A DNA stretch of 64,000 nucleotides from assembly GCF_001891125.1 (NCBI RefSeq), contig NZ_CP015247.1, positions 390,501-454,500 of the forward strand, given 5' to 3'. Positions 31,007 to 45,540 of this stretch are shown one piece after another; within the stretch, counting starts at the first letter, position 1; each line of letters opens with the position of its first letter. The translations under genes and the position numbers were made by a program. The notes beneath the pieces are model-generated. The model made no database searches, was not told the DNA's origin, and was given only the letters and a program-made list of their open reading frames with translations. This DNA comes from Leuconostoc suionicum. Its GTDB lineage: Bacteria > Bacillota > Bacilli > Lactobacillales > Lactobacillaceae.

Positions 31007-32266
31007 ATGGCTAAAACAATGGCTGTTAACGCAGGTAGTTCATCACTAAAGTTTCAATTATTAGAGATGCCTGCAGAACAAGTAATTGCACAAGGTGTTA
31101 TCGAACGCATTGGTATGGACGATGCAATAGTAACGATTAAATACGGTGCAGAAATCAATGCAGAGCGCTTGGTTGGCCATTCAGAAGATGACGAACATAT
31201 TACTTTGTCCAAAGACGGCAAAGGTAAGAAGTATGAAAACGTTACTGCAATTAAAAACCACCAACAAGCTATTAACTTCATGTTGCAAAAGTTAACAGAT
31301 CTGGGGATTATTAAGGACTTTAATGAAATTACTGGTGTCGGACATCGTGTTGTTGCTGGTGGTGAATGGTTTAATCATTCCGTGGTAGTAACAGATGAAG
31401 TACTGGCTAAAATTGATCGTCTTGCAGATTATGCACCGCTTCACAACCCAGCCAATGCTATGGGAATTCGTGCTTTCCAGAAGCTTCTTCCTGATGCATT
31501 GTCAGTGGCAGTCTTTGATACTTCTTTCCATCAAACAATGCCAGATGAAAACTTTCTTTATGCCTTACCCTATGAATACTACACACGTTATGGTGCTCGC
31601 AAGTATGGTGCGCATGGCACATCGCACCGATATGTTGCATCGCGTGCAGCCGAACTACTTGGAAAAGACCTGAAGAGCTTGAAATTGATTACATTACATT
31701 TGGGTGCAGGTGCATCAATTACGGCTATTAAGGATGGTAAGTCATTAGATACTTCTATGGGATTTTCTCCTTTAGCGGGTGTTGCTATGGCAACGCGTTC
31801 AGGAGATGTCGATGCCTCACTAGTCTATTATATTCAAGAACGTGAAGGACTAACTAATGAAGAGATGTTGAATATATTGAATAAAAAGTCCGGCTTGCTT
31901 GGTATTTCAACGATTTCAAGTGATATGCGCGATTTACTAGATGTTCAGGACACTAATGAACACGCCAACATGGCTATTAGAATATTTATTAATCGTGTTG
32001 TTAAATATGTGGGACAGTATGTTGCTGAAATGGGAGGCGTTGATGCCATCGTATTTACAGCAGGAATTGGTGAAAACTCGGTCCCAGTTCGTAAAATGAT
32101 TATTGATAAATTAAACTACTTTGGTGTGAAATTAGATGAAGAAAAAAATAATGTTCGCGGCAAAGAAGTTGAAATATCTACGAATGACTCCAAGGTCAAA
32201 GCCTTGTTGATCCCAACCAATGAAGAACTAATGATTGCTAGAGATGTTGAATCTTTGAAAGCATAG
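31007..32266 (+). CDS. ackA: Acetate kinase
   Basis: 419 residues. Makes ATP from acetyl phosphate in the phosphoketolase pathway. ASKHA-fold signatures: AVNAGSSSLKFQL at the start, GHRVVAGGEWF, FDTSFHQTMP (catalytic Asp), HLGAGASITAIKDGKSLDTSMGF, and FTAGIGENS. A plausible promoter TTGTAT-N16-TAGAAT lies at 30948-30975. Followed by a terminator at 32288. Confidence 0.97.
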   Translation: MAKTMAVNAGSSSLKFQLLEMPAEQVIAQGVIERIGMDDAIVTIKYGAEINAERLVGHSEDDEHITLSKDGKGKKYENVTAIKNHQQAINFMLQKLTDLGIIKDFNEITGVGHRVVAGGEWFNHSVVVTDEVLAKIDRLADYAPLHNPANAMGIRAFQKLLPDALSVAVFDTSFHQTMPDENFLYALPYEYYTRYGARKYGAHGTSHRYVASRAAELLGKDLKSLKLITLHLGAGASITAIKDGKSLDTSMGFSPLAGVAMATRSGDVDASLVYYIQEREGLTNEEMLNILNKKSGLLGISTISSDMRDLLDVQDTNEHANMAIRIFINRVVKYVGQYVAEMGGVDAIVFTAGIGENSVPVRKMIIDKLNYFGVKLDEEKNNVRGKEVEISTNDSKVKALLIPTNEELMIARDVESLKA

Positions 32267-32287: not shown

Positions 32288-32316
32288 CGGCTAGTGGACT
32301 ACACTAGCCGCTTTAT
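32288..32316 (+). terminator. ackA terminator
   Basis: Stem CGGCTAGTG / CACTAGCCG with a 5-base loop, then CTTTATT. Confidence 0.7.
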
Positions 32317-32341: not shown

Positions 32342-33643
32342 ATGCAGTCCAGAAAAGAAAGACATCAGCATGAGATCAAAAATGCTGAGGCGATTGAGAA
32401 AGGCCTCGATCCATTTGCTGATACAATGAATAGTGGGAATAAGAGCGGTAACCCTAGAAAAAAACGTAAAAAGCCTAATCGTCTGATATTACTTTTGTTA
32501 CTTTTAGTCATAGTGATAGGTTTGTTTTTCGGATTAAAAGTTTTATTGACAGATAATACAGCTGCATTAGATCCGAATGACACAACGTTTAAAACTGTGA
32601 AAATACCATCCGGATCTACACCCTCTCAGATGGCAAAAGCATTGCAAAAACAAAAAGTTATTAAAAGTTCTGAGGCCTTTTACAAATATTCATTAAAGCA
32701 CGGTGCTGAAGATCTCCAAGCAGGTACTTATAAAATATCACCTTCTCAAACGGTTCAATTGATTTTCAAACAGATGACGCTAGGACCTAATGCTGGACCA
32801 CAATTGGGCAAAGGATATGTTTTGGTAGCAACGGGTCAGGATCGGTCGGCTATTGCCAAAAACGTTGCTAGTGAGACTAAATTGTCACAAGATAAAGTGA
32901 ATAAGGCATTTAGTGATAAATCTATTATTGCTAAAATGAAGGCAAAGTATCCTGATTTATTGAAAAATATGTCTTCTAAGAGTAGCTTGGCAGATTATGT
33001 TTACCCAGCTGCCTACGATTTAAATAAAGTGACAGATGTTACTGATTTAATGACGAAATTGTTGGCAACTTCAGATAAACAACTAAAGTCGTATTATAAA
33101 GACTTGAATAAAGATGGTATAAATAAGCCTGCTGTTATAACATTGATGGCTACTTCGGGTAAAAGCGAATTCGAACATCGTTTGGCTTTTGTCAATAAAA
33201 TTGCACCATATGCTCAGACACTCAGTAAAAAATATGGTATCTTAGCATCAATATCGATAGCTCAAGCAGCACACGAATCAAACTGGGATAACTCAAAACT
33301 ATCATCTAAATACAATAACTATTTTGGTGTTAAAACTCAGGATGAGACAGCAGGAAAATCAGTTGTTTTGGAAACAACTGAGTATGTTGATGGGAAACCT
33401 GAGACACAAAAAGCGCGTTTTGCTGTGTATAGCAATTGGAAAGATAGCATGAAAGAACATGCTGAAACATTAGTGAATGGTAATACTTGGAATCCTAATC
33501 AATTCCAAGATGTGTTGGATGCAAAGAACTACAAGGAAGCTGCTAAAGCTCTGTATAAAGATTCATACGCAACCGATGTTAATTATCCAAAATTGATTAT
33601 AAATTTGGTCGAAACATGGAATTTACAACGTTTTGATAAATAA
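32342..33643 (+). CDS. MltG-like protein with its catalytic half replaced by a GH73 glucosaminidase domain
   Basis: 433 residues. Basic cytoplasmic N-terminus, one membrane helix (47-67), a LysM-like MltG segment (about 82-145, VKIPSGSTPSQMAKAL), then an MltG-like region (150-275) with KMKAKYPDLL and DYVYPAAYDL, as in MltG KMVAKYPNLL and LEGYLFPATY. Where MltG has its catalytic Glu (SSLVEKEG) this reads MATSGKSE, and the rest of MltG is absent. From about 283 to the end is a GH73 domain (SIAQAAHESNW with likely catalytic Glu312; NNYFGVK). The gene is close to greA, as mltG often is. I infer it evolved from mltG by domain swap; it should cut peptidoglycan glycan strands at the outer face of the membrane. 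Confidence 0.82.
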   Translation: MQSRKERHQHEIKNAEAIEKGLDPFADTMNSGNKSGNPRKKRKKPNRLILLLLLLVIVIGLFFGLKVLLTDNTAALDPNDTTFKTVKIPSGSTPSQMAKALQKQKVIKSSEAFYKYSLKHGAEDLQAGTYKISPSQTVQLIFKQMTLGPNAGPQLGKGYVLVATGQDRSAIAKNVASETKLSQDKVNKAFSDKSIIAKMKAKYPDLLKNMSSKSSLADYVYPAAYDLNKVTDVTDLMTKLLATSDKQLKSYYKDLNKDGINKPAVITLMATSGKSEFEHRLAFVNKIAPYAQTLSKKYGILASISIAQAAHESNWDNSKLSSKYNNYFGVKTQDETAGKSVVLETTEYVDGKPETQKARFAVYSNWKDSMKEHAETLVNGNTWNPNQFQDVLDAKNYKEAAKALYKDSYATDVNYPKLIINLVETWNLQRFDK

Positions 33644-33648
33644 ATATA

Positions 33649-33685
33649 AACCCGATTATCTAGACACTCTAGATAATCGGGTTTT
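33649..33685 (+). terminator. Terminator of the MltG-GH73 gene
   Basis: Perfect 16-bp stem beginning AACCCGATTATC around CAC, then TTTT. Confidence 0.92.
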
Positions 33686-33963: not shown

Positions 33964-34023
33964 AAATAGTGTGAAAAAGTGATGTTTTACAGAACATCAT
34001 ATGGAAAAGGAGCAATATTTAGC

Positions 34024-34989
34024 ATGAGTTTAGCAATCATACTGGCTTTAGTGCCGGCACTAGCTTGGGGTTCCGTTGGAATCGTCAATACAAAAATGGG
34101 AGGGACAGCCGGTCAACAGACATTAGGCATGACCTTTGGTGCTTTGATATTTGGCCTAGCAACAATGTTTTTCTTTGTAATGCCACGCCACATCGAATTA
34201 AGCAGTCATATTTGGGTTGTCGGTGTCGTTTCTGGTTTGGTTTGGGCAGTTGGAACAGCAGGGCAGTTTTTGGCTATTAAGGATTTGGGCGTTTCGCTTG
34301 CTATTCCATTGTCAACAGCCGGTCAAATTGTAGCAAATGCTTTAATGGCGGCCGCTGTCCTAGGTGAATGGAAAACTGCTAAAATGTGGGCAATTGGTGT
34401 GATCTCAATCATTACTGTTGTTATCGGTGCAACTTTGATTTCAGCTCGTGATAAAGCAAAAAACAGCGAAGGAATCGAAGCACAAGAGCAAAAAAAGGAC
34501 TGGACTAAAGGGCTTATCTACCTGATTGTTTCAACTATCGGATTCATGTTCTATTTTGTTTTACCAAACTTCTTAAATAAAGTTGGTTACATTTCTGATG
34601 CAATTAAAGCACGTGGTAATGGTGTCGATTATATGACTGCCATTGTTGGACCACAAGCTATCGGTCAAGTTATTGGCGCCTTTCTGATTGTTGTCTTTGT
34701 TCTGAAAGAATCAAGTATCATGTTTAAGTTACCAACTTGGCGTAACATTGTAACAGGTCTAGTTTGGGCTGCTGGTAATATTTTCATGTTCATCTCAGCT
34801 GCCAATCCTGATGTTGGTCAAACCATCGCAACGACATTCTCACAATTAGGTATTATTGTTGGTACTTTTGGTGGTATCTATATATTAGGAGAAAAGAAGT
34901 CAAGTTATCAAATGAAGTTAATTGTGATTGGTACAATATTAGTTGTTATTGGCGCAATTATCATCGGCAATATTTATACTTTCGCATAA
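34024..34989 (+). CDS. GRP-family sugar transporter (GlcU/RbsU-like)
   Basis: 321 residues with ten predicted membrane helices, the DMT-fold architecture of the glucose/ribose porter family. Features: MSLAIILALVPALAWGSVGIVNTKMGG at the start, AGQFLAIKDLGVSLAIPLSTAGQ, and SQLGIIVGTFGGIYILGEKKS near the end. ATG 34024 starts at the first helix with AAGGAG 11 bases upstream; an in-frame ATG at 33979 would add a polar 15-residue lead. The flanking cre pair indicates carbon-catabolite control. Glucose or ribose import by proton symport is likely. Confidence 0.85.
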   Translation: MSLAIILALVPALAWGSVGIVNTKMGGTAGQQTLGMTFGALIFGLATMFFFVMPRHIELSSHIWVVGVVSGLVWAVGTAGQFLAIKDLGVSLAIPLSTAGQIVANALMAAAVLGEWKTAKMWAIGVISIITVVIGATLISARDKAKNSEGIEAQEQKKDWTKGLIYLIVSTIGFMFYFVLPNFLNKVGYISDAIKARGNGVDYMTAIVGPQAIGQVIGAFLIVVFVLKESSIMFKLPTWRNIVTGLVWAAGNIFMFISAANPDVGQTIATTFSQLGIIVGTFGGIYILGEKKSSYQMKLIVIGTILVVIGAIIIGNIYTFA

Positions 34990-35030: not shown

Positions 35031-35513
35031 TTATTTAGTTACGTTAATAATTTCGACGTCAATGCTAATGCCATTTGGCAATGGAACAGCAACGGTTTCC
35101 CCGACCTTTTTACCAATTAAGGCATTGGCCATGGGTGACTCGTTAGAAATTTTTCCTGCCAAAGGATCAGCTTCTACAGAACCAACAATAGCATATGTTT
35201 CAGGTTCTTCATCTGGTAATTCTTTGAATGTCACCGTCTTACCTAATGAAACTTCGTCCTTGGCTGTTGCATTAGAATCAATGATTTCAGCATTATCAAT
35301 CATATTTTTTAAAGTTTGAATGCGTCCTTCAACAAAGGCTTGTTCATCTTTAGCTGATTGATATTCTGAGTTTTCTGATAAGTCCCCGTATGATCTTGCA
35401 ACTTGAATACGTTTTGTAATTTCTGGTCGTTGATTAGCAATAAGATCTTCCAACTCAATTTGAAGCTTGTCACGGCCTTCAGCAGTCATTGGATATGTTT
35501 TTTCTTCAGACAT
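35031..35513 (-). CDS. greA: Transcription elongation factor GreA
   Basis: 160 residues. Rescues backtracked RNA polymerase by stimulating transcript cleavage. N-terminal coiled coil with the acidic tip [18 protein letters not shown] (about 42-60) and C-terminal FKBP-like domain ([22 protein letters not shown]). AAAGGAAA ribosome binding site. In many relatives greA lies next to mltG; here the MltG-derived gene is 1.4 kb away with the transporter gene between. Confidence 0.96.
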
Positions 35514-35568: not shown

Positions 35569-38178
35569 TCATGTGTGGATTTTTTTTGCAATAGATTTTC
35601 GATTAATTATTAACAATAGCAATAAGGCGAGTAAGCTAATTATCACCCCGTAATAGAAAAGAGGTGGTGTGTAAACAAAGGAGATTTTATGGAGACCAGG
35701 TCTCGTTTTTACTGCTATAAAATAGTTGGCTACTTTGGTCGTTTTGACTATTTTACCATCAACCTTAACTTGCCAGCCCGGAATCGACGGAATAGTTGTC
35801 ATAATGAGTGGCTTTTTGGTCGTTGTTTTGATAGTGCCTTCAATGCGTCGCTGTGAGCGTTTGCTTATCTTTAGGCTATTCTGTTTCAGATTAGTCGAAT
35901 CCTTGGCTATTCGCTTATTATCGATGTGATACAGAGTCACATTTGTCAGCGCTAGCGTCTGGGTATCTTTAAGCCTGAATGTAATAGTTTGTAATTTATC
36001 CTTGGCATTGGTAGCCAAATTAACAACAACAGTATGTCGATAGGTATTGAATTGCGTAATTACTTTGCCGTTAATTAATAAATCAAAATTTTTAATGTCT
36101 AATCCGCTACCAATCGTCAGATAATAACTATCATTAGTTGTGGGCGTAAATTGTAAGTCAAGACTTGCAGGTTTTGCAGCATTTTGTCGAGTGATAATTG
36201 AACCAGTAATCATACTTGGTGCAGTAAGGTTATTTCCGATGGATTTTTGGAAGTTGTCAACATGAACAGTTGAGGTCGTTGAGCCAGTTATACCTTGCCA
36301 AAGATTACCTTGATTTTGAAGTGGATTATTGAAAAGCATTTTGGTATTCAATGCACCGGAACTAGCTGCAAATGCGAGTGGCAAAGCATTTTTATTTTGA
36401 TAAATATTTGTGGTTTTGGTAGTGGCCTTAAGCTTGTAATTTTTGGTATCAGGACGAAAACCAATTAGATGTTGGCTAGGCTGACCAGCGTCTCCATTAT
36501 CTTTGCCATTCGCCGTGATAAAATACTTCATTCCTAAAAAGGCATCAGATAATACGCTACCATTACTATAAACAACGTAATTATCACCATCTGGTTGACC
36601 AAAATTACCAAAGAAAGTTGGTGTCGCTTTTGGTAAAGCAGAACTAAAATGAGCACCACCGTAATAGTTAAGCATCATAGAGTCGCCACGTGTTCGTTGG
36701 AATGTTTGTGCCACGCGGTACCATGAACGATCTTTTTTAATTTTTTGAGTTGCGTCGGTAAGGGCGCGAATGGCATTTTGGTATTCGGTGTTTGTAAGAT
36801 ATGAAAAATGATTGAGTGTTAATGCTACATTGGCGCCAAGAGAAACGATGGTGATTAGACTAAGCAGCGGCAACCAAATACGATCGTGACTTTTAAAAGT
36901 AAAGTGGACTAACGTTAATAAAGCTAATCCAATAAAAATGGCAATGCTATTACTGTCTATGTAGCTTGTCTTTTGATCATTTATAAACGCATATACCGCG
37001 ATGCCTACAAAAGAAACAAATAGCAAAACAAGCGTTATTTTTTGTGGTCGCCAAGTCGGCTGCCAACTCATTGCGGCTAAGTATATAACAAAAAAACTAA
37101 TTAGGAAGCTAAACCGGTAAGGATACCAAACTGGATATTGAAAACCATGAAAAAGTAAGGTTAGGGGTGCCCATGTTGTTGCCAAGAAGAGAAAACTTAA
37201 AATAGCAAACGCACCAACTTTGACACGCCAATGTATGACACGAGTGGTAATAAAGGTAATCAATGTGATTAAAATAAACGCGCTAACATAGAAATTGGCT
37301 TGACCACTCTGCATTTGGTCAAAATCAAAGCTACCCGGAATTAACTTGAGAAGTAGATGCAATGGATTGTTATCAAATTTGAAAGAAAATTCGGAATTAT
37401 ATTGTGATTTACCAAGCGTCAATTGGAAGTAGGTGGGCAAAATAAGCCACGCGGACAATGCGCCACCAATAATAGAACCAAGAGTAAAGTGCCATAAAAT
37501 AGTTAGACGATGTTTAACATTAGGCCATGTGAGGCGCCACAAAAAATAAAGAACAATAAAGATGGCTACCATGAAGCCAATATAATAATTCGTGATGATA
37601 GTAATAGCAAATAAGACGCTATAACGCCACCATGTTTGACGGTAGAATACTTGTTCAAGCTGATAAATTACAAGTGGCAGCATGACAGCTGTATCAAGCC
37701 ATAGTAGGTTGAGATTATTAGCGACAAACCAACCAGATAGGGCAAAGTTGATGGCAAAGAGGGTAATATAGTAGCCGTGTTGTAAATGCAGTTTTTTTAA
37801 AAGGTAACCCATTGAGAGACCAGCTGCACCAATCTTTAAACAGATAACCAATAGAATCGCAGCAGGTAAATTAGCGTTTGATATAAAAAGAAAAATGAAG
37901 TTAAATGGGCTCATCAAATAGTAGGCCCATTCACCTAACATATCTCCGCCTAATGCGTTTGAAAATGAATAGAAGAAACTGGATGGGTGTTGTAAAATAG
38001 TGTATTTGAATGCTGCAAATTGATCAATGTATTGTTGACCAAGATCAACAGTCAGTATAGAGTTGGAACCAAAGGGTGCCATTTTCCGATAAGCAAAATA
38101 TCCGATTAGAACAAGAAAAGGAATCCAAAAACTGAGTGCAAGCGGTGAAATTGTGTATTTTTTAATTTTACTTTTCAT
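35569..38178 (-). CDS. YfhO-family polytopic membrane protein
   Basis: 869 residues. About a dozen membrane helices in the first 420 residues, a large extracellular domain (about 450-830) and a last helix near the C-terminus. The N-terminal region LTVDLGQQYIDQFAAFKYTIL and SFFYSFSNALGGDMLGEWAYYLMSPFNFI is diagnostic of YfhO. Relatives are GT-C-like proteins linked to glycosylation of lipoteichoic acid or wall polymers. ATG 38178 is preferred: an extended -10 box ends seven bases upstream and there is no ribosome binding site. The in-frame start at 38190 would overlap the -10. Confidence 0.88.
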   Translation of the reverse strand: MKSKIKKYTISPLALSFWIPFLVLIGYFAYRKMAPFGSNSILTVDLGQQYIDQFAAFKYTILQHPSSFFYSFSNALGGDMLGEWAYYLMSPFNFIFLFISNANLPAAILLVICLKIGAAGLSMGYLLKKLHLQHGYYITLFAINFALSGWFVANNLNLLWLDTAVMLPLVIYQLEQVFYRQTWWRYSVLFAITIITNYYIGFMVAIFIVLYFLWRLTWPNVKHRLTILWHFTLGSIIGGALSAWLILPTYFQLTLGKSQYNSEFSFKFDNNPLHLLLKLIPGSFDFDQMQSGQANFYVSAFILITLITFITTRVIHWRVKVGAFAILSFLFLATTWAPLTLLFHGFQYPVWYPYRFSFLISFFVIYLAAMSWQPTWRPQKITLVLLFVSFVGIAVYAFINDQKTSYIDSNSIAIFIGLALLTLVHFTFKSHDRIWLPLLSLITIVSLGANVALTLNHFSYLTNTEYQNAIRALTDATQKIKKDRSWYRVAQTFQRTRGDSMMLNYYGGAHFSSALPKATPTFFGNFGQPDGDNYVVYSNGSVLSDAFLGMKYFITANGKDNGDAGQPSQHLIGFRPDTKNYKLKATTKTTNIYQNKNALPLAFAASSGALNTKMLFNNPLQNQGNLWQGITGSTTSTVHVDNFQKSIGNNLTAPSMITGSIITRQNAAKPASLDLQFTPTTNDSYYLTIGSGLDIKNFDLLINGKVITQFNTYRHTVVVNLATNAKDKLQTITFRLKDTQTLALTNVTLYHIDNKRIAKDSTNLKQNSLKISKRSQRRIEGTIKTTTKKPLIMTTIPSIPGWQVKVDGKIVKTTKVANYFIAVKTRPGLHKISFVYTPPLFYYGVIISLLALLLLLIINRKSIAKKIHT

Positions 38179-38185
38179 AAGTATT

Positions 38186-38214
38186 AGCATACCAAATTTT
38201 ATTTAAATTGAGAA
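38186..38214 (-). promoter_or_regulatory. yfhO promoter, leaderless arrangement
   Basis: On the reverse strand: TTCTCA, 17 bases, TGG-TATGCT (extended -10, ending at 38186), then seven bases to the ATG at 38178. Confidence 0.6.
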
Positions 38215-38266: not shown

Positions 38267-38884
38267 TTATTTAGTTGAAGAAATCGCAATGGATTCTGCA
38301 ATATGTTGCTCGGGATTTAATAATAGCTGAGCAATAAACTCTGCGACACTTGTTCTAGTGATTGGGCCACCAATAATTTTTTCGTGAGGATCAGCTTGGA
38401 CATTCAGTTGTTGCATTTTATTATCATCAGTTAGTTCGTTGGGTCGAATGATTGTATAGTCCAATTGAGATTCTTCGATGCGCCTAGCTGCAGCAGCTTG
38501 ATCTCCCATGTAGGTGTTTTCATTGTCTGGGGTACCCAAAATATTACGCCAAATGTCAGCAGTTTCAGTAGGTATCTCATTGTAAATACCGATTGTTGCG
38601 ACCCAAATTAAGCGCTTAACGCCAGCAGTGTGCATTGCGTTAACTAAGGCATTAGCGGCGTTTTTTTGTCGACCTTCTGCACCAATATTTGCATAAACAA
38701 TATCAATGTCTTTTAGCGCACGAACTAAATTTTCTTCTTTAGTGGCATCAAGTGATTTGATTGACTTTTCAGGGCGAGCGTGAAGAGAAGTTAATGTAAT
38801 TTTTGTATCGGTATTTGCCAGTATGTCAACCACAATTTTAGCAATTTGACCGTTGGCACCGAGGATTAAAATGTTTTTTGTCAT
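38267..38884 (-). CDS. NAD(P)H-binding atypical short-chain dehydrogenase family protein
   Basis: 205 residues. Rossmann start ILILGANGQIAKIVVDIL (GxxGxxx), then DIDIVYANIGAEG, LIWVATIGIY and LDYTIIRPNELTD, as in the NmrA/YwnB-like PF13460 group. Such proteins bind NAD(P) as sensors or reductases of unknown substrate. No ribosome binding site; TGC-TAAAAT ends six bases before the ATG, suggesting a leaderless transcript. Divergent from the MoxR/VWA operon. Confidence 0.8.
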   Translation of the reverse strand: MTKNILILGANGQIAKIVVDILANTDTKITLTSLHARPEKSIKSLDATKEENLVRALKDIDIVYANIGAEGRQKNAANALVNAMHTAGVKRLIWVATIGIYNEIPTETADIWRNILGTPDNENTYMGDQAAAARRIEESQLDYTIIRPNELTDDNKMQQLNVQADPHEKIIGGPITRTSVAEFIAQLLLNPEQHIAESIAISSTK

Positions 38885-38890
38885 GTCTTC

Positions 38891-38899
38891 ATTTTAGCA
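38891..38899 (-). promoter_or_regulatory. Extended -10 of the NAD-binding protein gene, leaderless arrangement
   Basis: Reverse strand TGC-TAAAAT (38899 to 38891) followed by six bases and the ATG at 38884. No clear -35 box. Confidence 0.5.
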
Positions 38900-39008
38900 C
38901 GATTGTTTGTGTTGCGGTAGAATATACTTAGAAAGGGTATAGAAATAAACGTGGCGATAATTATTGGCTTTTAGACACGGTTATCTATACATAAAACATG
39001 AGGTTTAT

Positions 39009-40160
39009 ATGAGTTTAACTTATCAAAAATTACTAGTAGCTGTACCTTTAATTTTGCGTGGCGGTAACGTACCAACCATTGTGGGAGAAGCTGGAATTGG
39101 AAAATCTGCCCTTGTTGCTGAAGTAGCTAAAAAATTGGATGCGAAACTTTTTACAACAGTAGTTTCACTATCTGAAAAAGGAGATTTAGCAATTCCAATC
39201 CCACCTTTGAATGAGACATCATTCTTGCAAACTAAAAATTATGGTCAATTGGCTGATATTAAATTTGGTTATACACACACTTTGATACAAATTATAGAAC
39301 AAGCTGAAATCGAGCCGGACCGAACCATTATCTGGTTTTTAGATGAATTCAACCGAGGATCACAAGCGGTACAAGGTGAACTAATGAATCTTGTTTTACA
39401 GCGACAAATTAATGATCTGGTATTGCCTGATAATGTCAAACTCATTCTCGCAGAAAATCCCGATGATTCAATGCAAGGGTTTGAGAATGCCGAATATGCG
39501 GTTCAAACATCTGATGCGGCGATTAAAGATCGAACCACTCGACTGGTCATGACCGTTTCAGTTCGTGATTGGTTGCAGTGGGCCGCATCAGGAAAAAAGC
39601 GACCGCACATACACGGCTTGGTCCGCCAATTTATTGCCGAAAATGCCCAATTATTGTACCCAAAAAATCGAGATATTGACTTGAATCCTACCCCGCGTGC
39701 GTGGCAGCGCGTATCTGATAATTTATTCCAGTTGCAAAAACTAGCCAAAGAGCAGCAAGATGAATTGTTATTTGATATCGTAGCGGGAGATCTTGGAGAC
39801 AATTGTGCCACACAATTTGTGACTTTTGTCCAAGAAAAAATAACTAGTCTAACAGCTGAGGACGTCTTTAATTCAACACCAAGTGGTCCAAAATTACCAC
39901 AGATAATACGTGAAAAATTCCAGAGTTTTTCAGAAATTCAAAAGCTGAACGTGATGAAAACTTTATTATTAACGGCAGATATGAGACTAGATAATAATGC
40001 TGGTCGTTTCAGTGAGTTACTCAATTTGATTGCTCCCGATGGACAGTATGCACTGGTAAAACAAATGACGAGCGCGCCAATTTTGGATGATTTATATGCT
40101 TCTGATAATCATTACGCCAACGTGTTATATCAACAGATTATGGATATTGCTACACGATGA
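39009..40160 (+). CDS. MoxR-type AAA+ ATPase
   Basis: 383 residues. AAA+ core with Walker A GEAGIGKSAL (about 26-35), Walker B IIWFLDEFNRG, sensor I LILAENP and a conserved Arg pair in KDRTTRLVM. MoxR ATPases usually work with VWA-domain partners as chaperones that load metals or remodel complexes. ATG 39009 follows GAGGTTT; the gene is the first of four that overlap by four bases each (ATGA). No homologue with a known role can be named from the sequence. Confidence 0.87.
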   Translation: MSLTYQKLLVAVPLILRGGNVPTIVGEAGIGKSALVAEVAKKLDAKLFTTVVSLSEKGDLAIPIPPLNETSFLQTKNYGQLADIKFGYTHTLIQIIEQAEIEPDRTIIWFLDEFNRGSQAVQGELMNLVLQRQINDLVLPDNVKLILAENPDDSMQGFENAEYAVQTSDAAIKDRTTRLVMTVSVRDWLQWAASGKKRPHIHGLVRQFIAENAQLLYPKNRDIDLNPTPRAWQRVSDNLFQLQKLAKEQQDELLFDIVAGDLGDNCATQFVTFVQEKITSLTAEDVFNSTPSGPKLPQIIREKFQSFSEIQKLNVMKTLLLTADMRLDNNAGRFSELLNLIAPDGQYALVKQMTSAPILDDLYASDNHYANVLYQQIMDIATR

Positions 40161-41314
40161 AATCAGAGAATGACAAGCTAATTATTGATGGTATTAAAAC
40201 ATTGCTCGATGTATCACCCCTCTACGGTAATATTGTGATGAACTTAGTCCGAGAGGTGAATCCACAGGCTGCTAATCCATTAGCGTTAAAATGGCAAGGA
40301 CACCACTGGTACTTGGTGGTTAACCCTAATTTATTAACGGCTCGTTTTACATCACACAACCAGGTTGCTGCTGCATTAGCTCATGAGGCTTTGCATGTTA
40401 TTTGGCAGCATCCGACTCGTTATGCGCAAGAACGAAAACATAATCAAATGGTTGATATAGGTACTGACTTAGCGGTCAACCAATACTTACCAAGTGATTT
40501 GGGTGAATTACCTGGTGCAATATCGTTTCAAACTATCAATGAACTCTATCACATTAAATTACCACACAATCAGGATTCATCGACCTATATTTCTTTATTG
40601 TCAGAAGTTGATCAAAAAAATTCACAGGCGAAAAAGAAGACTTTGCCAAAACATACGGAATGGAAAAGCGCAAGTAATGCAATAGAAGAAGCTGAGTCTG
40701 CATTGAAGAACGTGATAAAAAAAGCCAACGACGATACGAGATACGCTGGACGTGGTAATGTATCGGGTGCTGTTTTGCAACAAATTAGTGAGGTTGTCGT
40801 ACCGAAGCGCAACTGGAAAAGCATTTTGCGAACTGGTATCAGTCAAGCACCAAATAAAAAGAAAGATTCACGAGCTAGGTTTAATCGCCGACAGGCATAT
40901 CGACTTGATCTACCAGGAGAAATTAGTCGTTATGATACGGAAATTGCTGTTTTCATTGATAATTCTGCATCAATATCTAATCAACAGGCAAGTGAGTTTT
41001 TAGCCAATGCCATGCAGATAACAAAACAATTTGATATTAACGTGCATTTCTTTTCGTTTGACACGAAAGTGCATCAAATTAAAAATATAAAAACGTGGGA
41101 ACGCCACGCCGGTGGTGGAACAACTTTTCAAAGCATATTCGATGCATTAATTGCTTTAAAATTTTTTCCCCTGCAAACACTGGTAGTTATTTTTACGGAT
41201 GGTGATGGTGAAAAAGAGTTGATTCAAACCAAATTTAAACATGTGTATTGGTTACTACCAGAGGGGCAAACATTAAGCCTACCATCACCATTTGGAAAGG
41301 TTATTACGCTATGA
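40157..41314 (+). CDS. Putative metallopeptidase/VWA-domain protein (DUF2201-like)
   Basis: 385 residues. An N-terminal metallopeptidase-like domain with HEALH at 76-80 (in AAALAHEALHVIWQHP), a polar basic linker (about 155-245), then a VWA-like domain with an intact MIDAS: DNSAS at 268-272, Thr near 322 (GGGTTF) and Asp in FTDGDGE near 348. This is the standard partner of a MoxR ATPase. No signal peptide, so cytosolic. ATG overlaps the stop of the ATPase gene. Whether the HExxH site is catalytic is unknown. Confidence 0.85.
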   Translation: MKSENDKLIIDGIKTLLDVSPLYGNIVMNLVREVNPQAANPLALKWQGHHWYLVVNPNLLTARFTSHNQVAAALAHEALHVIWQHPTRYAQERKHNQMVDIGTDLAVNQYLPSDLGELPGAISFQTINELYHIKLPHNQDSSTYISLLSEVDQKNSQAKKKTLPKHTEWKSASNAIEEAESALKNVIKKANDDTRYAGRGNVSGAVLQQISEVVVPKRNWKSILRTGISQAPNKKKDSRARFNRRQAYRLDLPGEISRYDTEIAVFIDNSASISNQQASEFLANAMQITKQFDINVHFFSFDTKVHQIKNIKTWERHAGGGTTFQSIFDALIALKFFPLQTLVVIFTDGDGEKELIQTKFKHVYWLLPEGQTLSLPSPFGKVITL

Positions 41315-41601
41315 AATTAAAACCTCAAGATCTTAAGAGTTTTATTGATAAAGACAGGCGCTACAAGCGGGCAGAAGCATTACTGATTGGGCAGTGGGAA
41401 TCATTGCTATTAAGTGAGCCGTGGGACATGCCGATGATTACACGAGCCGATGTTTCTTTTGCCAAAACATTAAGCGAAGCAAATGTTGTTAAAACAGATG
41501 TTGATTTGTCGACGTTTAAGGGTGTACAGGCATTTATAAGCCACAACAGCAGTCGGCTAACACCAGACGTTATTAAACTATTAAAGGAGCCATTTTTATG
41601 A
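41311..41601 (+). CDS. Unrecognised small protein in the MoxR/VWA operon
   Basis: 96 residues from ATG 41311, which overlaps the previous stop (ATGA). Soluble, rather basic N-terminus (MKLKPQDLKSFIDKDRRYKRAE), then mixed helices; no Cys, no membrane segment and no motif that I know. Position between the VWA gene and another unknown gene, with four-base overlaps on both sides, makes it a likely subunit or substrate of the same system. Confidence 0.75.
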   Translation: MKLKPQDLKSFIDKDRRYKRAEALLIGQWESLLLSEPWDMPMITRADVSFAKTLSEANVVKTDVDLSTFKGVQAFISHNSSRLTPDVIKLLKEPFL

Positions 41602-42104
41602 AAATAAACTTAGTATTAGCACCAGAGCAACCCGTTTCGGAACTGTTAACATTACAAAGCGCTCAACCGCAAAATGTATTTTATTTAGGAAAAATTTCTC
41701 AACTGGCAGGGACAAATTTACTCATCATTGATGCACAGAATGTCGTTGCAAAATTTGCCCGTCCTATTGGATTTGAGAGTCGAGCAGTTATCGGACAATT
41801 TAAAGGGAACGTTGTTCATCAAATTGCATTTCAGGCTAAGGATAACAATGATGAGTTGATTGCAAAGTTATTAACTGGAAATGCCATTATGGCTCAAAAT
41901 GATAATGGTAAGTCAGAGTATATGATTTGGTCATTCTGGCCAACTCACGATGAATTAGCACGTTTTCTAGCTAGTGAAATCTATCAACAAATGCACGATT
42001 TGATGAAAAATCCGTATACTACAACTTATCAGCACGTGACTGATGCATCGCAGTTATCCTTGACGACCAAAATGCGTGACTTTGACAAGGAGTGGTGGGG
42101 ATAA
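41598..42104 (+). CDS. Unrecognised protein, last gene of the MoxR/VWA operon
   Basis: 168 residues. Overlaps the previous gene by four bases. No membrane segment or signal peptide. N-terminal half predicted alpha/beta (INLVLAPEQPV, NLLIIDAQNVVAKFARP), C-terminal part with SEYMIWSFWPTHDELARFLASEIYQQMHDL and an acidic aromatic end (FDKEWWG). I recognise no family. No clear terminator follows; the next strong promoter starts 54 bases later. Confidence 0.75.
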   Translation: MKINLVLAPEQPVSELLTLQSAQPQNVFYLGKISQLAGTNLLIIDAQNVVAKFARPIGFESRAVIGQFKGNVVHQIAFQAKDNNDELIAKLLTGNAIMAQNDNGKSEYMIWSFWPTHDELARFLASEIYQQMHDLMKNPYTTTYQHVTDASQLSLTTKMRDFDKEWWG

Positions 42105-42157
42105 GTAATTACAAAGGCTAATTTTCACATTTTTATCGTGTAAAGCCCGATATCTTC

Positions 42158-42186
42158 TTGACAATGTTTTTACTGGCCTGTATGAT
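42158..42186 (+). promoter_or_regulatory. Strong promoter of the leucine-leader/liv operon
   Basis: TTGACA (42158-42163), 17 bases, TATGAT (42181-42186): consensus -35 and near-consensus -10. Confidence 0.9.
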
Positions 42187-42219
42187 ATTAGATATTAAGA
42201 AATCAGGAGGCAACACATC

Positions 42220-42282
42220 ATGCAAAACATGAATCAAAAACAAAACTCATCTCAAGCCCTCCTTCTCCTCCTCATGCTGTAG
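42220..42282 (+). CDS. Leucine-rich leader peptide (attenuator peptide)
   Basis: 20 codons: MQNMNQKQNSSQALLLLLML then TAG, with AGGAGG nine bases upstream. Five consecutive Leu codons (CTC CTT CTC CTC CTC, 42259-42273), an ATG, and a sixth Leu codon CTG directly before the stop. Six of the last seven codons are Leu, four of them the same CTC. This is the hallmark of a translated leader that senses leucyl-tRNA. Confidence 0.88.
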   Translation: MQNMNQKQNSSQALLLLLML

Positions 42283-42409
42283 TCATGATGAGGTTTTTCG
42301 CACTCATGACTAACTGGAATCAGTGTTCATGGGTGTTGAAATGATGAGTATAAATGCTGTCATTATTAACGATTAGTAACCCATGAATTTTGGTATTCAT
42401 GGGTTTTTT
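42280..42409 (+). promoter_or_regulatory. Transcription attenuator of the branched-chain amino-acid transporter operon
   Basis: Five segments pair in alternatives: A 42280-42288 (TAGTCATGA, starting with the leader stop codon) with B 42304-42312 (TCATGACTA); B' 42301-42309 with C 42327-42335; C 42326-42334 (TTCATGGGT) with D 42379-42387 (ACCCATGAA); D 42378-42388 with E 42395-42405 followed by T6, the terminator. A ribosome stalled on the Leu codons leaves A free, giving A:B and C:D (read-through). A ribosome at the stop masks A, giving B:C and D:E (termination). Confidence 0.85.
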
Positions 42410-42454
42410 GTTTGCGAAAAGAAGGAATTGAGAGAATAAATTGGAGAAGAAAGA

Positions 42455-43630
42455 ATGAAAAAAATTGTAATTGTCGGCGCTGCGTTTATTGTTGCTATTG
42501 TTGCTATCGTTGCATTTGGGATAGTCAATAAGTCTAGCAAAGCATCAACATCAAATGTAATCAAAATCGGGGGTGTCTTTGATACATCCGGTGACGCTTC
42601 CTCATATGGAAAGGCTGAGCAAGATGGTGCTAACTTTGCTATAAAGCAAATTAATGCTAATGGTGGTGTTAAAGTTAACGGAAAAAGCTATAAGTTTAAA
42701 ATCATTAACAAAGATGCTAAGACGGACAATACTGAAACCGCTTCGGTAACAAGTAGTTTGATTAACAAAGAAAAAGTCAGTGCTATCGTTGGTCCCGTGA
42801 TTACCTCTGGTGTTCAAGCAGCAGTGCCAGTGGCAACTCAAGGTAAGACGCCGATGATTTCACCAACTGCTGGTGCAGACAACATTACTTTGCAAAAGAA
42901 TGGGAATGTTCAACCTTACGTATTCCGCGCACAATACAAAAATTCTTTTATGGGTACAAAGATGGCACAATTTGCCACAGAGACTTTAAAAGCTAAAAAT
43001 ATTGTGATTTTCCAGGACAATTCTTCCGATTATGGTACTGGTATCACATCTGCATTTAAAAAAGCCTTTAAGGGTAACGTCGTAGATGTTGAATCTTATC
43101 AAGAAGGCACGAAAGATTTTCAAGCAGTTTTGACAAAAATTAAGGATAAAAAGTTTGACGCAATTGCAATCAACGGCTACTACACTGAGGGTGGTGCAAT
43201 TTTGAAGCAAATGCGTGATATGGGAATTGATGTGCCGGTTATTGGACCAGATGGCATTGGTGATCCTAAAACGGCTGAAATTGCGGGAAACAAAAATACA
43301 AGTAATGTTTATTACGCGGCACATTTCTCAGTTGATGCACCAGCTACTAAGGTTTCAGCACCATTCGCCAAAGCTTATAAAAAGGCTTATGGCAAGTATC
43401 CATCACAATTTACAGCTTTAGCTTATGATTCAGTTCGCATGATAAAAGCAGCTATTGAAAATGAAAATTCAACCAGCAAATCGGCAATTACTAAGGGATT
43501 GGCTAACTTGAAAAATTTTGATGGTGTAACTGGTAAGATGTCAATTGACAAAGACCACAATCCTGTCAAATCAATGGTTATGGTCGGCATGACTGATGGT
43601 AAAGAGTCATCTGCCGTAGTTGTTAAGTGA
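42455..43630 (+). CDS. livJ: Branched-chain amino-acid ABC transporter substrate-binding protein
   Basis: 391 residues of the Leu/Ile/Val-binding family (type I periplasmic-binding fold): IKIGGVFDTSGDASSYGKAEQDGANFAIKQIN, SAIVGPVITSGVQAAVPVA, FRAQYKNSFMGTKMAQF, GPDGIGDP. An N-terminal hydrophobic segment (about 3-24) is followed by SSKAS with no Cys, so there is no lipobox; it may be held by an uncleaved anchor or released. Start at 42455 with GGAGAAGAAAG upstream, 45 bases after the attenuator. First of five liv genes. Confidence 0.93.
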   Translation: MKKIVIVGAAFIVAIVAIVAFGIVNKSSKASTSNVIKIGGVFDTSGDASSYGKAEQDGANFAIKQINANGGVKVNGKSYKFKIINKDAKTDNTETASVTSSLINKEKVSAIVGPVITSGVQAAVPVATQGKTPMISPTAGADNITLQKNGNVQPYVFRAQYKNSFMGTKMAQFATETLKAKNIVIFQDNSSDYGTGITSAFKKAFKGNVVDVESYQEGTKDFQAVLTKIKDKKFDAIAINGYYTEGGAILKQMRDMGIDVPVIGPDGIGDPKTAEIAGNKNTSNVYYAAHFSVDAPATKVSAPFAKAYKKAYGKYPSQFTALAYDSVRMIKAAIENENSTSKSAITKGLANLKNFDGVTGKMSIDKDHNPVKSMVMVGMTDGKESSAVVVK

Positions 43631-43687
43631 ACACATTTTCTAGGAAACGTATGAAACCAATGCGTTTTATAATATTTTGAGGTTAAA

Positions 43688-44566
43688 ATGACTACTTTCA
43701 TTCAACAATTAATCAATGGTCTTATGCTAGGCAGTGTCTATGCGCTACTAGCTTTAGGCTATACAATGGTCTACGGTATTATTAAATTAATCAATTTTGC
43801 ACATGGTGATGTATACATGCTCGGTGCGTATTTTGGCTATTTTTTCATTAAGGTTTTACATTTAAATTTCTTTATAGCATTAATTCTCGCAATGGCAGTA
43901 AGCGCCATTATTGGTGTGGTCATTGAGTATATTGCCTATCGACCATTGCGTCATTCTCCAAGAATTGCAGTTCTTATCTCCGCTTTAGGCATCTCTTTTT
44001 TGTTAGAAAATGGCATGACTTATTTATATGGGTCAGATCAACGTTCATTTCCACAGGCGATTAAGACAGTACAATACCATTTTTATGGTATACAAGTTTC
44101 AAATATTCAGTTGATTATTGCTGTAACTTCAATAGTTTTGATGCTGTTATTGACTTACATTGTTAAAAATACAAAAATGGGTCGTGCGATGCGGGCAGTA
44201 TCTGCAGATCCAGATGCAGCTTCATTAATGGGTATCAACATTAATCACACAATTTCATTTACATTTGCAATTGGGTCAGCATTGGCGGCGGCTGGTGGCG
44301 TTTTGATTGGATTATATTATAACAGTATCGACCCATTGATGGGGATGACACCTGGGTTGAAAGCGTTTGTTGCTGCGGTTTTGGGCGGTATAGGCATTAT
44401 TCCAGGGGCAGCAGTAGGTGGTTGGCTAATCGGTGTATTGGAAACAATGGTTCAAGCGACAGCTTTTTCAGATTACAAAGATGCGATCGTGTATGCAATG
44501 TTGATTGTCATATTGCTTATTAAACCAACTGGTATTTTAGGGAAAAACAAGCGGGAGAAAGTTTGA
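43688..44566 (+). CDS. livH: Branched-chain amino-acid ABC transporter permease LivH
   Basis: 292 residues, eight or so helices. LIV permease signatures FIQQLINGLMLGSVYALLALGYTMVYGIIKLINFAHGD at the start and the coupling loop RAVSADPDAASLMGININHTISFTFAIGSALAAAGG. TTGAGGTT ribosome binding site. The stop TGA shares its A with the livM ATG. Confidence 0.95.
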   Translation: MTTFIQQLINGLMLGSVYALLALGYTMVYGIIKLINFAHGDVYMLGAYFGYFFIKVLHLNFFIALILAMAVSAIIGVVIEYIAYRPLRHSPRIAVLISALGISFLLENGMTYLYGSDQRSFPQAIKTVQYHFYGIQVSNIQLIIAVTSIVLMLLLTYIVKNTKMGRAMRAVSADPDAASLMGININHTISFTFAIGSALAAAGGVLIGLYYNSIDPLMGMTPGLKAFVAAVLGGIGIIPGAAVGGWLIGVLETMVQATAFSDYKDAIVYAMLIVILLIKPTGILGKNKREKV

Positions 44567-45540
44567 TGGATCAAGCGCATATTAAATACACGTTATCATG
44601 GGCATCTTTGGCTGCAATGGGGTTCATTTTGATATTTGTAGCTCAAATGGTTGGCCTTATTGGTCATTATGGCATCACAACGATTGTACTGATTGGCATT
44701 AATATCATTGCTGCACTAGGCCTTAATCTAGTAGTTGGTATTTCGGGGCAGTTTTCGTTAGGACACGCTGGATTTATGGCTATCGGTGCTTACGCGACAG
44801 CATTAGTTATGGAAGTTGTTCCTGGTATCATTGGCTTTATTTTGGGAATGGCTGCAGGTATCGTAGTCAGTGGCGTAATTGCTCTAATTGTTGGTATTCC
44901 AACATTGCGTTTACGTGGCGATTATTTGGCTATTGCGACATTAGGATTTGCTGAAATTATTCGAATTGTCATTATGAACTTGAAAATAACTAACGGACCA
45001 GCTGGTATTTTTGGCATCGAACCTTTTGTGAGTTGGCAATTAGTTTATATATTAGCAGTTATAACATTGATTATTGTGGTCAACTTTGTTCGTAGTATGC
45101 CTGGGCGAGCTATTATTGCCGTTCGTGATAATGAAATTGCTGCCGAATCCTTAGGAATTAATACAACTAAGTATAAGGTAATTGCTTTTGTGACTGGTGC
45201 ATTATTTGCTGCTATGGCTGGTAGCTTGCGTGCAAGTTTCATTCAATCTATTGCGCCTAAAGACTATGCTTTTATGCAAAGTATTATGATTTTAATCATT
45301 ATTGTAATCGGTGGGATTGGTTCAATGAGTGGAACAGTTGTGACAGCAATTGCGTTAGGTGTGTTAGACACAATGTTACAAAATTTTGGTTCCTTGCGTA
45401 TGGTCATCTACGCTGTTATTTTAATTGCTGTGATGCTGGTTAGACCTCAAGGTATTTTTGGTAGTCGAGAACTATCATTAAAGAAATGGTTATTTGATGA
45501 AGGAGACGGACATGGTTCAGACAATACTGAAAACGCGTGA
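44566..45540 (+). CDS. livM: Branched-chain amino-acid ABC transporter permease LivM
   Basis: 324 residues. Second permease: INIIAALGLNLVVGISGQFSLGHAGFMAIGAYATAL, IPTLRLRGDYLAIATLGFAEIIRI, AVRDNEIAAESLGINTTKYKVIAFVTGALFAAMAG. ATG 44566 (a TTG at 44563 is also in frame) with GGGAGAAAG upstream. Overlaps livG by 29 bases. Confidence 0.94.
   Translation: MDQAHIKYTLSWASLAAMGFILIFVAQMVGLIGHYGITTIVLIGINIIAALGLNLVVGISGQFSLGHAGFMAIGAYATALVMEVVPGIIGFILGMAAGIVVSGVIALIVGIPTLRLRGDYLAIATLGFAEIIRIVIMNLKITNGPAGIFGIEPFVSWQLVYILAVITLIIVVNFVRSMPGRAIIAVRDNEIAAESLGINTTKYKVIAFVTGALFAAMAGSLRASFIQSIAPKDYAFMQSIMILIIIVIGGIGSMSGTVVTAIALGVLDTMLQNFGSLRMVIYAVILIAVMLVRPQGIFGSRELSLKKWLFDEGDGHGSDNTENA

Follow-up and report, generated by a model that had tools for sequence, protein, structure and literature searches.

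A fusion of an MltG-like membrane stem with a GH73 domain at the mltG locus of Leuconostoc and related genera

In the window, by which we mean the whole 64,000-nucleotide stretch of Leuconostoc DNA that was analysed, we found a single intact open reading frame of 433 amino acids (32342-33643, + strand) whose product joins an MltG-like N-terminal part to a GH73 domain. The gene (the fusion below), its segments and its neighbours are as follows.

31007-32266, + strand: ackA (acetate kinase), the upstream neighbour, found near the fusion in Oenococcus too
32342-33643, + strand: mltG-locus fusion gene, 433 aa, with a transmembrane helix, a LysM-like domain, half of an MltG catalytic domain and GH73
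32342-32479, + strand: basic cytosolic tail, aa 1-46 (from sequence; low-confidence structure by AlphaFold2 pLDDT)
32480-32548, + strand: transmembrane helix, aa 47-69, RLILLLLLLVIVIGLFFGLKVLL (from sequence; AlphaFold2 helix 47-69)
32591-32782, + strand: LysM-like beta-alpha-alpha-beta domain and the helix that follows it, aa 84-147 (AlphaFold2, PF02618 and 4IIW match)
32792-33172, + strand: retained first half of the MltG catalytic domain, aa 151-277, with KYPDLL and VYPAAYDL (PF02618 to profile position 156; 4IIW_B)
33131-33172, + strand: former MltG active-site segment, aa 264-277, AVITLMATSGKSEF, catalytic Glu absent
33173-33640, + strand: GH73 glucosaminidase domain, aa 278-433 (PF01832; AtlA 7QFU, Auto 3FI7)
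33275-33277, + strand: Glu312 of HESNW, predicted catalytic acid (invariant, 29/29)
33380-33382, + strand: Glu347, in a beta-hairpin (invariant, 29/29)
33566-33568, + strand: Tyr409 of YATD (invariant, 29/29)
33648-33684, no strand assigned: terminator-like 17-bp inverted repeat followed by a T-run, listed on the - strand and nearly symmetric
33979-34989, + strand: sugar transport protein (PF06800, sugar uptake), between the fusion and greA
35031-35513, - strand: greA, conserved mltG neighbour, on the strand opposite to the fusion
35569-38190, - strand: yfhO, conserved neighbour past greA (by synteny)

The original prediction described an MltG-like N-terminal part followed by GH73, and both families were detected above their Pfam cut-offs. 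The YceG family (PF02618) matches residues 86-266 with profile positions 1-156 of 275 (63.8 bits, cut-off 32.4), so that a complete YceG catalytic domain is lacking, and PF01832 matches residues 288-428 over its complete profile (1-123 of 123; 108.9 bits, cut-off 30.2). Against TIGR00247 (MltG) the protein scores 72.6 bits, below the cut-off of 103.4. In phmmer comparisons, residues 74-279 match the Listeria MltG Lmo1499 (4IIW; E 4.5e-16) and residues 280-432 match the GH73 domain of Auto (3FI7; E 3.7e-22); the N-terminal transmembrane helix and LysM-like domain are homologous to those of MltG.

An AlphaFold2 model built with 29 sequences (mean pLDDT 84.8) agrees with this division. The LysM-like beta-alpha-alpha-beta unit of the fusion itself comprises aa 84-132, and aa 82-265 align with Listeria MltG (4IIW_B) at Z 12.1, with an rmsd of 10.8 that indicates a different arrangement of the sub-domains. 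The GH73 fold is complete: aa 274-433 match AtlA (7QFU) at Z 22.4 and Auto (3FI7) at Z 20.9, and the Glu of the ESxW motif, the beta-hairpin Glu and the conserved Tyr are present as E312, E347 and Y409, which we take to be the counterparts of the catalytic residues of Auto. The Glu of HESNW, proposed from the sequence as the active-site residue of this domain, is the invariant E312. Judged by sequence and model, the transmembrane helix 47-69 and the GH73 domain together would make a membrane-anchored glucosaminidase, as SagB is; Staphylococcus aureus SagB itself was absent among the sequence (phmmer) and structure matches of the fusion.

The YceG match breaks off where MltG carries its catalytic Glu, in a motif that reads LASLVEREG in MltG and LMATSGKSE here, in agreement with the earlier suggestion that the resemblance to MltG runs up to this motif, altered to MATSGKSE. 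The equivalent of Escherichia coli E218 is absent, in a register that is uncertain by a few residues: the position opposite is Gly273 by phmmer and a gap by MAFFT. An invariant Glu276 lies three residues beyond that position. Among 75 full-length MltG sequences from Lactobacillales and other Bacilli (some of them duplicates), all but five have Glu at the catalytic position.

The canonical gene order in Lactobacillaceae is pheS-pheT-mltG-udk-greA-yfhO-PBP, a Weissella genome (G035) has pheS-pheT-mltG-yfhO-greA, and the Leuconostoc group has ackA-fusion-transporter-greA-yfhO. The shared greA-yfhO synteny thus identifies the fusion as the in-place ortholog of mltG with changed upstream neighbours. 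Proximity to greA had been proposed to mark the ancestral mltG locus, and this is borne out, with the sugar-uptake gene lying between the fusion and greA. The fusion is also the sole YceG protein of this Leuconostoc genome, where a search for another mltG returned no second YceG protein. In the sister genus Weissella this slot is occupied by a full-length mltG, which excludes an unrelated insertion and indicates a remodelled gene. A terminator-like hairpin lies between ackA and the fusion (32288-32310), 31 bases 5' of the start codon; as a promoter would hardly fit behind it, expression may need read-through, attenuation or an overlapping promoter. In most other Leuconostoc a class B PBP gene directly follows yfhO, and in the window this place (38270-41311) is taken by a gene for an NAD(P)-binding protein and by a pair for an AAA_5 ATPase and a VWA (DUF2201) protein, then a branched-chain amino acid transporter. 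No defence genes were found in window positions 38964-45537.

We surveyed 301 genomes of the family and 60 relatives. In Leuconostoc, Fructobacillus, Convivina, L. fallax and g56, five genus groups with 37 genomes in the survey, every genome has the truncated YceG match and no other. Both YceG and GH73 are matched by each of the 29 fusion proteins in our alignment (that of the window and 28 further loci). The nearest relatives of the window are Leuconostoc species, and its fusion shares 86% identity with the L. litchii fusion. The original prediction had raised the question of fixation in related genera, and the architecture is fixed in Leuconostoc, Fructobacillus and Convivina. A shorter form of 286-287 aa, with the transmembrane helix, LysM and GH73 and without the half-MltG spacer, is found in genus group g46, which we infer to be Oenococcus partly from the absence of MutS. 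A search of 397 other Bacilli genomes taken from the class gave no full fusion, and in a scan of named genomes it was present only in the Leuconostoc group. The other three matches of that scan (two in Weissella, one in Companilactobacillus) were to GH73 alone.

The Leuconostoc genome has two GH73 genes, the fusion and a membrane-anchored stand-alone protein (212-221 aa), and their GH73 parts are 53.6% identical. In the GH73 tree, the fusion, the Oenococcus form and the stand-alone proteins of the Leuconostoc group cluster together with support of 95/80, which becomes 96/93 once Weissella-side sequences are added to that group. The simplest account from these sequences is that the GH73 part is a fused copy of the resident membrane-anchored stand-alone gene of the lineage. 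Topologies that keep the fusion and the Oenococcus form together (p-AU 0.515) and that place the Oenococcus fusion with the Oenococcus stand-alone protein (p-AU 0.391) were both retained. A single origin of the fusion for the Leuconostoc group and Oenococcus appears simplest, because the yfhO tree unites these two (100/99) and then joins them to Weissella (100/99). The dN/dS values of unsaturated pairs are 0.06-0.15 in the transmembrane and LysM segment, 0.09-0.11 in the MltG half that was kept and 0.02-0.05 in GH73, the most conserved segment; all three are under purifying selection and none is decaying.

MltG is generally regarded as the enzyme that terminates glycan strands at the membrane, and the LysM-like domain of MltG and MpgA holds the nascent glycan and sets the cutting distance. 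We consider it probable, at roughly 0.6, that the fusion is a domain-swapped mltG whose product acts as a membrane-anchored, LysM-guided glucosaminidase trimming nascent strands; activity, substrate, control of strand length and location are deduced from the sequence, the model and analogy. The transmembrane anchor and the membrane-proximal LysM-like domain would have been kept, the first half of the MltG catalytic domain would serve as a spacer, and the active half would have been replaced by a copy of the membrane-anchored GH73 of the lineage. On the extracellular side of the membrane, at septal or peripheral sites of cell-wall synthesis, the protein would cut nascent strands that are not yet crosslinked, at a fixed distance from the membrane, and may hydrolyse the GlcNAc-MurNAc bond to leave reducing GlcNAc ends, like SagB in S. 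aureus. In MpgA the LysM domain places the cut seven disaccharides away from the lipid anchor (PMC8563077), strands of seven disaccharides are also produced by Bacillus subtilis MltG (BsMltG; PMC8135044), and the membrane-anchored glucosaminidase SagB, with SpdC, frees nascent strands in S. aureus (PMC12272431); the fusion would unite an MpgA-like stem with the chemistry of SagB. Several points weigh on this reading. A strand-terminating role cannot be read off the GH73 domain, since domains of this family also act in cell separation and autolysis; the distance to the membrane differs in the Oenococcus form, which lacks the spacer; and Glu276, close to the old MltG active site, is invariant.

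MltG catalysis has been lost repeatedly in the family. We detected intact proteins of 114-142 aa with only the transmembrane helix and LysM in the mltG slot (pheT-x-udk-greA) of two Lactobacillaceae genus groups, g6 and g51 (loci L116, 6494-6838; L118, 6528-6869; L117, L119, L123, L218 and L220-L222), with a dN/dS of 0.058, a sign of purifying selection, in the one pair measured, which is near saturation at dS 1.8. mltG is apparently lost altogether from 19 near-complete genomes of g43, g54 and part of g6, and close relatives of the mltG-less genomes retain it, whole or as a remnant. In five full-length MltGs, Gln replaces the catalytic Glu (L051 and L204 of Weissella, g18; L205 and L209 of g41; L216 of g49), with motifs such as LASIIQGEG and VASLVQGEN; the g49 relative L215 retains Glu, and the changes in Weissella, g41 and g49 are apparently independent losses of catalysis. 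Since these losses have no visible substitute, terminase activity may be unneeded, and the relatives that keep only the transmembrane helix and LysM suggest that the non-cutting part is what really matters. Glu to Gln at the catalytic position is the laboratory substitution that kills MltG, and Enterococcus faecalis MltG sustains growth without its YceG domain and fails to do so without LysM (PMC12288455); the comparative pattern points in the same direction as this experiment.

A link to EloR/KhpB was also considered, as its loss is tied to MltG in the pneumococcus. Jag_N (EloR/KhpB, PF14804) was absent from all 12 fusion genomes tested (G000, G001, G009, G012, G019, G024, G025, G069, G079, G104, G112 and G133). 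The link was rejected: Jag_N is also missing in some genomes with an ordinary MltG and is present in genomes of g6 and g43 without MltG catalysis.

The E. faecalis requirement for LysM and not YceG, the persistence of LysM-only proteins at the mltG locus of g6 and g51, with low dN/dS in one pair, and the five Gln-bearing MltGs all favour an alternative in which the transmembrane and LysM part is a non-enzymatic scaffold for wall homeostasis, to which GH73 adds a dispensable or general hydrolase with a function other than strand termination. We regard this as unlikely, if still the strongest competitor, because the low dN/dS of GH73 and its invariant candidate catalytic residues indicate that activity appears to be selected, and GH73 was kept in Oenococcus even though the MltG spacer was dropped. 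It is more doubtful still that the fusion serves to separate daughter cells as an AcmA/LytB-like autolysin, held in the membrane by an MltG part that acts only as an anchor. The nearest solved GH73 structures are those of autolysins (AtlA and Auto), and with only two GH73 genes in the genome one may serve separation; against this, the transmembrane helix and membrane-proximal LysM would put GH73 near the membrane and not in the mature septal wall, the other GH73 is also membrane-anchored and could perform separation, and both the mltG locus and LysM are conserved. A chimeric assembly or a decaying pseudogene, of which we saw no sign, is refuted by the identical intact architecture in dozens of independent genomes and by purifying selection.

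Taking the domain-swapped mltG together with the losses around it, we tentatively propose, at somewhat less than even odds, that the conserved function in Lactobacillaceae lies in the transmembrane and LysM part and not in cutting, that the cutter has been lost, changed to Gln or exchanged, and that nascent strands of the Leuconostoc/Oenococcus line, where the exchange was for a glucosaminidase, would end in reducing GlcNAc instead of an end of the MltG type. The original prediction stressed hydrolase rather than lytic transglycosylase chemistry, which is not itself new for the family given the precedent of the pneumococcal MltG (MpgA), a muramidase (PMC8563077). The novelty lies in an mltG ortholog that has had its cutting domain swapped throughout a lineage, and in the recurrent disappearance of MltG catalysis around it; as predicted from sequence, a glucosaminidase as cutter, and with it the other glycosidic bond, would be new for the MltG family. 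In the open-access literature, searched for MltG in Leuconostoc and for MltG with GH73, we found no description of this architecture. The cutter swap (including the Leuconostoc and Oenococcus of food fermentations), the LysM-only proteins, the Glu-to-Gln changes and the full losses are natural experiments in close relatives, through which one could test what portion of MltG is required by the cell, and whether strand length is set by the LysM stem alone, irrespective of the cutting chemistry.

Among known systems, the fusion shares with MltG/YceG (PF02618; Lmo1499, B. subtilis, E. coli) the transmembrane anchor, the LysM-like domain, the first half of the catalytic fold and the greA/yfhO locus, but lacks the catalytic Glu along with the C-terminal half of that fold, GH73 taking their place. 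Like MpgA of Streptococcus pneumoniae, it is expected to be a membrane-anchored, LysM-guided hydrolase of nascent strands; MpgA cuts MurNAc-GlcNAc with its own YceG domain, whereas the GH73 of the fusion would cut GlcNAc-MurNAc. The engineered E. faecalis MltG delta-YceG, with natural counterparts in g6 and g51, likewise has the transmembrane helix and LysM without the YceG catalytic domain, but is artificial and lacks GH73. The GH73 autolysins (Auto/Lmo1076, AtlA, the AcmA family, FlgJ) have the same fold and catalytic residues, but are secreted or bound to the cell wall, often with binding repeats, and have no MltG stem. SagB of S. aureus is similar in being a membrane-anchored glucosaminidase, one that frees nascent strands, and differs from the fusion in standing alone, working with SpdC and lacking the LysM part of MltG.
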